A stretch of DNA of 64,000 bases. Origin: Dysgonomonadaceae bacterium PH5-43 (GTDB lineage: Bacteria > Bacteroidota > Bacteroidia > Bacteroidales > Azobacteroidaceae). Shown here in pieces: positions 13,069 through 50,660 of the stretch (position 1 is its first letter; the number at the start of each line of letters is the position of its first letter). A model generated the notes under the pieces. It did no database searches and was not told the origin of the DNA. It was given only the letters and a program-made list of their open reading frames with translations. The stretch spans positions 1 through 64,000 of the forward strand of contig JARXWK010000001.1 of NCBI GenBank assembly GCA_029916745.1, in the 5' to 3' direction. The translations under genes and the position numbers were made by a program.

Positions 13069-13166
13069 TTTGAAATTTACGCACGTACGAAAATTTATTT
13101 TCAGACGTACGTAAATTTATTTCCAGACGTGCGTAAATTATTTTTCGTACGTGCGTAAATTTCAAA
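13069..13166. promoter_or_regulatory. Operator-like array: 25-bp perfect inverted repeat with four ACGTRCGT sites
   Basis: The arms at 13069-13093 and 13142-13166 are perfect 25-bp reverse complements. Between them are two more copies of the core (ACGTACGTAAAT from 13105, ACGTGCGTAAAT from 13127). With the right arm (ACGTGCGTAAAT from 13149) these make three direct copies at exactly 22-bp spacing, plus one inverted copy in the left arm. The right arm covers the expected -33 region of the downstream promoter (-7 at 13176). This looks like cooperative binding sites for a regulator of the PBP1A gene and possibly recJ. Confidence 0.65.
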
Positions 13167-18579: not shown

Positions 18580-18826
18580 TAGATACTCCGTGTCTCTCTA
18601 CTAAGAACACCCTTCTCGTTATTACTAAAGAGGCGAGTTGCTTCTTAGTAGATACCCCTCGTCGTTCTTAGTAGAGACCCGATGCCGCTCTTAGTAGAAC
18701 CGCCCCGCCTTTATACTTAAGACACCCCGTCTTTCTACTAAGAGACACCTCGCCTATCTACTAAGAGAGAGAAGGGGTCTCTTAGTAGAAAGACGACCCT
18801 AAGTGAAGCTTTGCATTTTCAGGAGA
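18580..18826 (+). repeat. 23-bp-unit intergenic element, copy 1
   Basis: There are about ten consecutive units of 21-24 bp. Each starts with the core CTTAGTAGA or its partner CTACTAAGA (sometimes degenerate, as in TACTTAAGA) and continues with a GC-rich spacer such as TACCCCTCGTCGTT, GACCCGATGCCGCT or GACACCTCGCCTAT. The last two cores form a perfect 11-bp hairpin (18758-18768 with 18778-18788, 9-nt loop). The element ends with AAGTGAAGCTTTGCATTTT and AGGAGA (18801-18826). Copies 2 and 3 lie at 33499-33795 and 50391-50660. No ORF fits it. I do not recognise the family. Confidence 0.8.
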
Positions 18827-33344: not shown

Positions 33345-33498
33345 CTACATGACTCATGCAATTACTAATACAAATGTATTAATTTATTCAACAACTAAAC
33401 AAATAACTACAATAAAAAGATTATTATTGTGGCTTATTTAGAATGATTGCTAAATAATACAAGAGATTTTTGTATACTAATATTGATGTGAAAATAAT

Positions 33499-33795
33499 CT
33501 TAGTAAAATGATTGCTAAGAAGTTATTAGCCCCCTCTCCTTTCTTATTAGATACCCTTTGCCTTTGTTACTAAATAGGCGAGTTGCTTCTTACTAGATAC
33601 CCCCTGTTGCTCTTAGTAGATACCCCTTGCCGTTCTTAGGAGATACCCGATGTCGCTCTTAGTAGAACCGCCTAATCTCTCTTAGTAGAACCACCCCGTC
33701 GTTCTTAGTAGAGAGACATCGCCTCTCTTAGTAGAGACACGAGGGGTCTCTACTAAGAGAGAAGACCCAAAGTGAAGCTTTGCATTTTTAGGAGA
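33499..33795 (+). repeat. 23-bp-unit intergenic element, copy 2
   Basis: This is the longest copy. It has degenerate units at the 5' side (CTTAGTAAAATG, GCTAAGAAGTTATTAG) and then about ten units with spacers TACCCCTTGCCGTT, TACCCGATGTCGCT, ACCGCCTAATCTCT, ACCACCCCGTCGTT and others. The last pair of cores forms a perfect 14-bp hairpin (33725-33738 with 33746-33759, 7-nt loop). The tail AAGTGAAGCTTTGCATTTT and AGGAGA (33770-33795) is identical to copy 1 but for one base. It ends 8 bp before the promoter of the CotH gene. A 12-mer AATGATTGCTAA occurs at 33442 and 33507 just before and in its start. Confidence 0.8.
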
Positions 33796-33802
33796 TATTC
33801 AC

Positions 33803-33825
33803 TACCTTTACCCATTGAAAAACAA
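33803..33825 (+). promoter_or_regulatory. CotH gene promoter/leader segment shared with the esterase-like gene
   Basis: TACCTTTACCCATTGAAAAA at 33803 is nearly identical to TACCTTTACCCTTTGAGAAA at 31234. Both contain TACCTTTA, one base off TAnnTTTG. The two downstream genes are both exported proteins and may be co-regulated. Confidence 0.45.
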
Positions 33826-33836
33826 TATGATACAGA

Positions 33837-35870
33837 ATGAAAAACTTAGTGCTTACTTGTTGCCTTACTTTGTTTTTGAGTTTGTTGTATTCTGAAATAT
33901 ATTCGCAAGCAATATTAAAACAGTATACAAATATACCTACTATGTATATAGATACCGAAGGAGGAATACCTGTAACAAGTAAAACCACCTACATACCTGC
34001 CGTTGTTAATATTGTAAGTAGTGATACTACTGAAAATCTGAGTATGATTACAGAAATAAGAGGACGAGGAAACGGCACTTGGGGTAAACCAAAGAAACCA
34101 TACCGCATTAAATTAAGCAAAAAAACTAATCTTCTTAATATGCCAGCAAAAGCTAAAATATGGACAATGTTGGCTAATCAAGCTGATAAAACATTAATGA
34201 GAAATGCTCTTGCTTTTAAGATAGGAGAACTGGTTGAGTTGGAGTTCACTCCTTCTGGGCGTTTTGTCGATTTGGTATTCAATGGCGAATATCAGGGTAA
34301 CTATTTTGTTGCAGATCAAATAAGAGTGGAAAAAGATAGAGTTGATATTGAAGAACAAGAGCCTTTTGATACTGAATTACCTGACATAACTGGAGGGTAT
34401 CTTTTGGAGTTAGATGGCTATGCTTCGTCTGAACCTAAATACTTTGTCAGCGGCAAAGGAGTACCCATTACGGTTAAGTATCCTAATGATGATGAAATAA
34501 GTGATGCTCAAATGGAATACATTGAAGAGCATATAAATAAGTTTGAATCTCGATTGTTTGCCAAAAATTTCAAAGACTCAATAGAGGGTTATAGACCTTG
34601 GATTGATGAGCATTCTTTAATTAACTGGTATATAGCTTGCGAACTCACTGGAAATCCCGATTGTTTTTGGAGCACGTATATATATAAACGCAGAAATAAC
34701 AACAAAATATTCTTTGGTCCTTTGTGGGATTACGACATAGCTTTTAATAACGACCATCGTATGGGAAATGCGGAAGAAAAACTAATGAGAAATTATGCTC
34801 ATTATCCTATAAACAAACAATGGTTGATGCAAATAAGTAGAGATGAATGGTTTCATAAAGCGGTAAAAGAACGTTGGAATCAATTAATAGAAAACAAGTT
34901 AGAGGAAAAGCTTTTAGCTTTTATCGATGATACTCGAAATCTTATTTATGAATCGCAAGAGTTAAACTACAATATATGGGGACCTGTACATCAAGCAAGC
35001 CATCTCGAATATTATCTTTTCGATACTTACGATGAAGGTGTTGATTATCTATCCGATTATATTAAAGTAAGAATTGCTTACCTTACTGAAAGTTTCAATA
35101 CGAATATAGAACCTTATACTCCTTTTGAGCCTGAGAATTATTATTATATGATAAAGAACGATGCCGCTGATAAATTTATAAGCGTTGTTGACAACTCTAC
35201 CCTACCCGATGCTGCTTTATGTATATGGGACGAAGAGAAAGATAATTATTCGCAACACTGGGAAATCGTATCTACAGATACCGACAACGAATATCAGATA
35301 ATCAACAGAGCTTCGAAGCTCGCTATTTGGAATGAAAATTTAGCTAAAGACATATTACAAAAAGAATCTGACTCTAATGATATTAATCAACGCTGGAAGC
35401 TTGAACAAATATATGATAATAATGGAGTTGTTGGTCTTACGAATATAGCTTCTTCATCTGCATTAGATAACAGAGGCGGAGCTAAAAACAATGGCAATCT
35501 TCTTATTGGCTGGACTTCAGAAACAACATCGAACGCTAATCAACAATGGAGATTTGTTAAAGTAGAACCTATAAATCCCGAAGAACCTAATATTCCCGAC
35601 AATGTAAAAGACGTAAAGTTCAGTAGAGTATATATTACGTCAAATCCTATAAGTAAGTCTGATGGTATAACAATAATACTTCCTGAAAATGTATCGGGAA
35701 GTATTATTGTTGAGTTGTTTAATGTAAAGGGTAATCGACTGTTTAATAAGAATTACAGAAACTTACAAGAAATACACCTTGCAATTCCATCAATCAATAA
35801 AGGGATATACATACTAAGAATAACTACAAAAGATATTCTGTATAATCAAAAACTGTTTGTTTTAGAGTGA
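33837..35870 (+). CDS. CotH-family protein with ricin-like lectin module and T9SS-type C-terminal domain
   Basis: This 677-residue exported protein has a signal peptide (about 1-24). The CotH domain (about 30-400) includes RGRGNGTWGKPKKPYRIKL and the metal-binding LWDYDIAFNND. CotH proteins in spores and some other bacteria are atypical kinases; the role here is unknown. Residues ~430-585 look like a ricin B beta-trefoil (YQIINRASKLAIWNE, QRWKLEQI, NQQWRFVKVEP). The last ~75 residues (IIVELFNVKGNRLF, INKGIYILRITT) fit a type A T9SS sorting domain, which predicts transfer to the cell surface. It is a single gene, tail-to-tail with the alcohol dehydrogenase (no gap). Confidence 0.82.
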   Translation: MKNLVLTCCLTLFLSLLYSEIYSQAILKQYTNIPTMYIDTEGGIPVTSKTTYIPAVVNIVSSDTTENLSMITEIRGRGNGTWGKPKKPYRIKLSKKTNLLNMPAKAKIWTMLANQADKTLMRNALAFKIGELVELEFTPSGRFVDLVFNGEYQGNYFVADQIRVEKDRVDIEEQEPFDTELPDITGGYLLELDGYASSEPKYFVSGKGVPITVKYPNDDEISDAQMEYIEEHINKFESRLFAKNFKDSIEGYRPWIDEHSLINWYIACELTGNPDCFWSTYIYKRRNNNKIFFGPLWDYDIAFNNDHRMGNAEEKLMRNYAHYPINKQWLMQISRDEWFHKAVKERWNQLIENKLEEKLLAFIDDTRNLIYESQELNYNIWGPVHQASHLEYYLFDTYDEGVDYLSDYIKVRIAYLTESFNTNIEPYTPFEPENYYYMIKNDAADKFISVVDNSTLPDAALCIWDEEKDNYSQHWEIVSTDTDNEYQIINRASKLAIWNENLAKDILQKESDSNDINQRWKLEQIYDNNGVVGLTNIASSSALDNRGGAKNNGNLLIGWTSETTSNANQQWRFVKVEPINPEEPNIPDNVKDVKFSRVYITSNPISKSDGITIILPENVSGSIIVELFNVKGNRLFNKNYRNLQEIHLAIPSINKGIYILRITTKDILYNQKLFVLE

Positions 35871-50114: not shown

Positions 50115-50390
50115 AATATTTTTTAATACACACACAAATATATAGCAACTATTCAGCAAAAGCTTTTTCTTTTTTTCCTATTTCACCCAAATTCTCGACA
50201 TTTTTTCTACTTACTTATTTTTACAATACTTCTCTTTTTTCTATTATTTTGATATTATCGACCCTTTGTGTCATTTAAGAGAGGGATCAAGAGAGTAAGC
50301 AAACTACCCCCAATAGGCAACTATCTGGAATCTCTTAACTCTCGGAGAAGAGCGTAAAAGTGAGCGACTGGATAAATGGACGGCTATACA

Positions 50391-50660
50391 TCTCTTACGA
50401 AGCACTCCGATGCTCTTGGTAGAACACCCTCGTGTCTCTTAGTAGATAGGCGAGCAGGTTCTTACTACAGACCCCTCGCCTTTGTTAGTAGATAGGCGAG
50501 CTGCTTCTTAGTAGAGACCCGATGTCGCTCTTAGTAGAACCTCCCCGTCGTTGTACTTAAAGCACCCTGTCGTTCTTAGTAGAGAGACCTCGCCTATCTA
50601 CTAAGAGACACGAGGGGTCTGTAGTAAGAGAGACGACCCTAAGTGAAGCTTTGTGTTTCA
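50391..50660 (+). repeat. 23-bp-unit intergenic element, copy 3
   Basis: About ten units with the same spacers in the same order as copy 1 (TAGGCGAGCTGCTT, GACCCGATGTCGCT, ACCTCCCCGTCGTTG, GAGACCTCGCCTAT, GACACGAGGGGTCT), but one 23-bp unit fewer after the GGCGAG unit. The tail GACGACCCTAAGTGAAGCTTTG (split at 50632-50653) is identical to copy 1 over those bases. The core before GACCTCGCCTAT is CTTAGTAG here but CTACTAAG in copy 1. Confidence 0.8.

Follow-up and report, generated by a model that had tools for sequence, protein, structure and literature searches.

REP and BIME elements of the RAYT (Y1 transposase) systems are dispersed, intergenic and composed of palindromic units, as is the repeat described here from the genome of Dysgonomonadaceae bacterium PH5-43. 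They were set aside as its source: PF01797, the Y1 transposase family, gave no match in this genome (control matches were obtained in 5 of 14 genomes), and the copies here are ordered 23-bp arrays with end words. Like MITEs, the element is of high copy number, intergenic and non-coding. A MITE of comparable architecture is BrickBuilt of Porphyromonas gingivalis, with 19 copies and the unit AGAYCATARTATCCTCTCRTRTG (Klein et al., 2015; PMC4596501). As far as the excerpted text of that paper describes it, BrickBuilt has in common with our array a leader, 23-nt tandem units, a tail, inverted ends on some copies only, an intergenic location and a narrow lineage. It differs in its unit (AGAYCATARTATCCTCTCRTRTG versus TCTTAGTAGA plus spacers here, compared by eye only), in its ends (IS5-type terminal inverted repeats GAGACCTTTGCA versus TAACTATTCAGC ... 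GCTGAATAGTTA here) and in copy number (19 versus 87), and it is in the present array that ordered slots with flipped cores were found. Because unit, ends and copy number differ, we did not file the element as BrickBuilt; it is of similar kind in another lineage and adds a second, apparently independent, element of 23-nt-minisatellite architecture.

Inversion of a short centre between intact arms has been described in other settings. In yeast, short spacers flanked by inverted-repeat arms are turned around by template switching, recurrently and reversibly, and the portions of that study drawn on here report centres of 2–5 bp inverted in place between intact arms (PMC8604942), as in our array; the yeast cases concern single-copy coding genes across strains, whereas here they concern paralogous repeats within one genome. 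Likewise, rRNA data that include bacterial examples, as excerpted from PMC8794818, contain loop-only inversions, typically of four bases, with the stem unchanged; these lie in functional RNA genes, whereas the array may not be transcribed at all. In chloroplast spacers such as trnH-psbA an inverted loop between palindromic flanks is often homoplasious, again as here, although the loop of 25–27 bp and the flanks of 18 bp given in the available part of that report (PMC2903610) contrast with 4 bp and 5 bp in the array. Our literature search found no paper joining loop inversion, inverted repeats and bacterial genomes and, judged by title, none on such a repeat among the matches listed for the literal core string.

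Architecture of the array

The body of the dispersed repeat is an array of about 220 bp of near-palindromic 10-bp cores with a period of 23 bp, each unit comprising a 10-bp core and a 13-bp spacer (e.g. TCTTAGTAGA with spacers such as TACCCCTTGCCGT). The core TCTTAGTAGA is termed F and its reverse complement TCTACTAAGA is termed R. At its 3′ end the array runs into a tail, GACCC[T/A]AAGTGAAGCTTTG, and slots were numbered in register from this tail, slot 1 being the core that adjoins it. Apart from one 22-bp step in a subfamily (e.g. 18712–18734), the 23-nt units follow each other in tandem without gaps. Their order is fixed, each slot having its own spacers and core variants, and the units are not interchangeable; variation at most core positions is much lower than at the majority of spacer positions (n = 579 units). 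In most copies, spacers of C-rich (TACCCCT...) and G-rich (TAGGCGAG...) type alternate across slots 7 to 10, as if adjacent units were mutually inverted. One divergent copy (L141, G000:C4:12134), with cores TCTCCTATCA and TCTTAGGAGA, perhaps represents an older subfamily.

Orientation depends strongly on the slot. Among the 87 copies read, the exact cores comprised 55 F and 23 R at slot 1, 20 F and 44 R plus 14 TCTCAGTAGA at slot 2, and 73 F and 6 R at slot 3, while all 206 exact cores of slots 4–8 were F and slot 9 held a single R, in copy 1 of the window. At slot 2 the R cores probably differ in history from those of slot 1 and belong to an inverted block: with both adjacent spacers included, they correspond to the slot 8–7 segment in reverse complement.

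Copies in the window

Three copies, all on the forward strand, lie in the window, i.e. the whole 64 000-nucleotide stretch that was analysed. Copy 1 (array and tail, 18597–18813) has R at slots 9, 3 and 2 (R core at 18757–18766), F at slot 1 (18780–18789) and its tail at 18795–18813. The ten cores of copy 2 (slots 10 to 1, 33542–33758) are all F-like except that of slot 1, which is TCTACTAAGA (33749–33758), with the inverted centre ACTA (33752–33755) between the arms TCTCT (33747–33751) and AGAGA (33756–33760); the conserved tail GACCCAAAGTGAAGCTTTG follows at 33764–33782. By sequence and folds, a local hairpin surrounds this core (33744–33768), in which GGGTCT (33744–33749) pairs with AGACCC (33763–33768) and the flipped centre falls within the loop. 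Copy 3, of a longer class (50146–50653), starts with the end word CAACTATTCAGC at 50146–50157, followed by a leader to about 50413, the array (50414–50629) and the tail (50635–50653).

The first-pass annotation of these copies had reported that core octamers are inverted in place with the hairpin kept; its letters were found at their coordinates, while the rule that pairing is kept did not survive. It had correctly read the core before the TCGCC spacer as R in copy 1 (18734) and F in copies 2 (33703) and 3 (50574), and the last two cores as R then F in copy 1 versus F then R in copy 2, with the arms swapped. The hairpin that it drew between slots 2 (F) and 1 (R) of copy 2 (33723–33761) is indeed perfectly paired, over 16 bp rather than 14 bp (CTCTCTTAGTAGAGAC, 33723–33738, with GTCTCTACTAAGAGAG, 33746–33761; loop of 7), and in this copy the TCGCC spacer reads GAGACATCGCCTC, not ...TCGCCTAT. 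Copy 3 had been left out of the statement on the last pair of cores; its last two cores, an R and the degenerate R-like TGTAGTAAGA, do not pair with each other, and the 16-bp hairpin of copy 2 is absent from most other copies.

The word CTTAGTAG occurs 22 times in the window versus 3.1 expected, a count reached by 0 of 100 shuffles. No promoter or terminator match was found at 33400–33900, and Rfam returned RNase P only for the window. No SSU rRNA was detected anywhere in the assembly. A separate repeat, ACGTACGTAAATTTA, with a 22-bp period and 3.6 copies, was seen at 13083–13162; it also occurs in the right flank of L103 (eight matches in 4 of 84 sources).

Copies, ends and neighbourhood in the genome

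The genome (2.54 Mb, 46 contigs) contains 87 tails at up to three mismatches, 59 of them exact, and no match to the reversed tail pattern; the exact core–13N–core pattern was matched 93 times on one strand and 91 times on the other, and its reversed pattern 0 times. All 87 copies were retrieved, 84 from elsewhere in the genome and three from the window. A word of the leader (about 250 bp), which is shared among long copies, was matched in 35 of the 87 (the long class), the others being mostly short (about 290 bp). Long copies often start with TAACTATTCAGC and some finish with GCTGAATAGTTA; many carry the left end word only, and short copies carry neither. Both end words (up to three mismatches) were present in L068, L108, L109, L129 and L138, which measure about 730–760 bp overall, or about 600 bp in L129, and no target-site duplication was visible by eye at these five two-ended copies. 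The flanks of L109 prolong the inversion of the end words (AAATATTTG / CAAATATTT), as if the element had inserted into a palindrome.

The element is almost always intergenic: with a crude ORF caller, overlap with an ORF of 70 amino acids or more was seen for 2 of 87 arrays. Short copies are most commonly placed between convergent genes (18 of the 42 whose neighbours on both sides were called), and several copies are situated at ends of the 46 contigs. A search for a parent transposase found six DDE_Tnp_1 loci in the genome, without a matching end pair; spread of the element is probably non-autonomous, in the manner of a MITE. In many long copies (L067, L082, L104, L113, L126) the region downstream of the tail carries A-rich direct repeats (AACTAAAAACTAAAAGATAAAAG; AACTAAGAACTAAGAGTGAAG), joined there by a GCCGTACGGCGAGCGAAGCGTTGCC block with 26 matches in 22 of 84 sources. 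Tetranucleotide runs of CTATCTAT, possibly contingency repeats, stand beside the element in the left flanks of L075 and L107 (3 of 84 sources).

Outside this genome, a DNA search of the 37 further genomes of the genus did not recover the array, and a degenerate triple, counted 259 times per strand in the source genome, had no match in 44 further genomes of the family. The leader gave only one 30-base match in 57 relatives, and plasmid and phage collections gave no match. The exact core pair was matched in a Betaproteobacteria MAG (genome_contigs) and in a viral contig (viral_contigs), each as one single-match stretch that we estimate to be due to chance.

Evidence for inversion in place at core centres

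The last 103 positions of 86 of the 87 copies were scanned in 75 four-base windows for pairs of copies that differ by at most two of 24 flanking bases and yet at all four bases within. Such pairs occurred at just seven windows. At the slot-1 centre 575 of 667 pairs were exact reverse complements, at the slot-3 centre 243 of 247, and at the slot-2 centre 46 of 324, the remainder there being presumably, from the centre counts, mostly ACTA versus CAGT; the other four windows gave 64 pairs and 0 reverse complements. Complete reverse-complement differences in near-identical context are confined to the centres of the three tail-proximal cores (slots 1, 2 and 3), as expected from one of the two interpretations offered by the first-pass annotation, a real inversion at the 4-bp centre. 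Between copy 2 and L078, for example, one of 93 flanking bases differs but all four centre bases do, and copy 2 is the sole R clustered with eight F copies at up to two flank differences. No mixture of TAGT and ACTA was found at the slot-1 centre, which argues against stepwise substitution. The data support inversion in place of the 4-bp core centres.

Clusters holding both slot-1 orientations numbered two, three and five at up to one, two and three flank differences respectively. On a tree of 80 copies, built with the three cores left out, slot-1 orientation required 21 changes versus 19.2 with shuffled labels, i.e. no tree signal; the values were 13 versus 17.1 for slot 2 and 5 versus 5.9 for slot 3. 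For 42 other two-state columns the ratio had a median of 0.61 and a maximum of 1.09, which is also the value of slot 1. In homoplasy slot 1 thus equals the highest of these columns; exchange by conversion between copies may therefore play a part, and would produce the same pattern on the tree. The flanks of slot 1 are linked across the core (P = 0.0002) more strongly than either is to the core (P = 0.03 and 0.08), and the core also shows a weak association with the GACCC/GCCCC letter of the tail (P = 0.01). Together, tree and flanks indicate repeated turning or exchange at slot 1, explained most simply by turning in place, with conversion of very short tracts as the main rival.

A possible route through a small hairpin

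The centre flips probably arise as a side effect of hairpins that form while DNA is copied, rather than as a structure-preserving change, and we regard it as somewhat probable overall that the slot-1 loop of this high-copy element is inverted by template switching in a local hairpin. The slot-1 core would cap a small hairpin, GGGTC.TCT-NNNN-AGA..GACCC, a position that would make the 4-bp centre its loop. During replication the polymerase would switch strands at the palindromic arms, and the loop would then be copied off the opposite strand, reversing the centre and leaving the arms and the local stem as they were; since the flip leaves that stem intact, it may be close to neutral.

The slot-1 centre does lie between TCTCT/AGAGA and an outer GGGTC/GACCC, and in folds it sits in the loop in either orientation (with RNA parameters for the F version). 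Arms of 5 bp were found in 70 of 78 exact slot-1 cores (21 R, 49 F), the others having 3-bp arms (two R, five F) or, in one F core, 6-bp arms; at slots 4–8, where all 206 exact cores are F, five have arms of at least 5 bp. Copies with a broken outer stem (GCCCC) were R in 0 of 10 cases versus 22 of 64 of the rest (P = 0.028), although they may simply be one F subfamily. Other results count against the hairpin route: R cores with 3-bp arms make up all six exact cases at slot 3 and occur also at slots 2 and 9, as DNA, the hairpin on its own has no unusual stability (z = −0.95), and the spacer inversions in yeast, in the part of that study drawn on here, had arms of more than 9 bp versus 5 bp in the array (PMC8604942).

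Alternative explanations

Compensatory evolution that keeps a hairpin between adjacent cores, the other interpretation of the first-pass annotation, might seem apparent from copies 1 and 2 of the window, both of which pair perfectly with swapped arms. It predicts slots 2 and 1 in opposite orientation. Exact cores at both slots, available in 58 of 87 copies, were RF in 23, FR in 2, FF in 18 and RR in 15, so that 25 of the 58 are in pairing combinations versus about 33 expected under independence, and 33 are not; the association is in the wrong direction, towards the same orientation (odds ratio 5.9, Fisher P = 0.03). With up to two mismatches allowed (85 copies), 34 pair and 51 do not, again towards the same orientation (P = 0.02). 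Complementarity of the 3′ arm to the 5′ region of its own copy (18.97) showed no excess over that to other copies (19.12) among 80 of the 87 copies, 1033 of 2000 within-class permutations reaching the observed value. Long-range pairing of 5′ and 3′ arms was rejected as a candidate, its striking cases (L140, 42 of 42 complementary) being equalled by comparisons between copies. Arrays do form stronger folds than their dinucleotide shuffles (mean z of −4.7 and −4.2; 21 of 84 eligible copies), which is no sign of selection because such shuffles destroy repeats; column mutual information, in a fixed register with a 1-base shift between subfamilies and with 13 of 84 rows dropped for low identity, was not taken as evidence. 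Core orientation is not arranged to pair, and compensatory evolution is hardly credible: across the fetched copies, orientation relative to the pairing partner is random or even biased away from pairing, the outcome that the annotation itself had named as speaking against preserved structure. The pairing of adjacent cores that it noted would be a chance outcome of a set of flipped cores.

Ectopic gene conversion, in which a flip of one or few origins was spread by the copying of short R-core tracts between elements, is possible, if clearly the less likely account. The elements are visibly mosaic, many columns lack tree signal (upper quantiles 0.79–1.09), and some R copies have an adjacent spacer in common with F copies; yet the tracts would have to stop within a few bases of the core, as in copy 2, whose right-hand word GAGAA is absent from all other R copies with the same spacer, the flanks stay linked across slot 1, and an original inversion is still required. 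Merging of reads from different copies into chimeric cores seems improbable. An assembly of 46 contigs with 87 similar elements, several of them at contig ends, invites the suspicion, and genomic repeats were reportedly linked to misassembly in P. gingivalis reference strains (PMC5771137), but slot 1 is R in 23 of 87 copies, across many different flanking haplotypes, and merging accounts for mosaics rather than for the existence of both exact states. We consider it very improbable that a site-specific recombinase or hairpin-resolving enzyme inverts the cores in a programmed manner, perhaps as a regulatory switch. The flips are exact and the conservation of the cores relative to most spacer positions is as for a protein-binding site, but the usual recombination sites are larger than a 10-bp site with 3-bp arms, flips are limited to the three tail-proximal cores, bar the slot-9 R of copy 1, and the identical cores of slots 4–8 are invariably F.

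Significance

Beyond the template switching that we prefer, the tail-proximal cores could be a built-in inversion hot spot, at which cruciform or hairpin opening in vivo has nearly randomised the orientation of the 4-bp loop genome-wide. We think this unlikely; if it were true, every copy would in effect keep a natural record of hairpin opening, or of a hairpin-resolving enzyme. With 87 copies within one genome, loop inversion can be separated both from substitution and from compensatory pairing, and hairpins that are ‘swapped but still pairing’ require no selection on structure. As an example of loop inversion in a dispersed repeat of a bacterium, the element is modest but clean.
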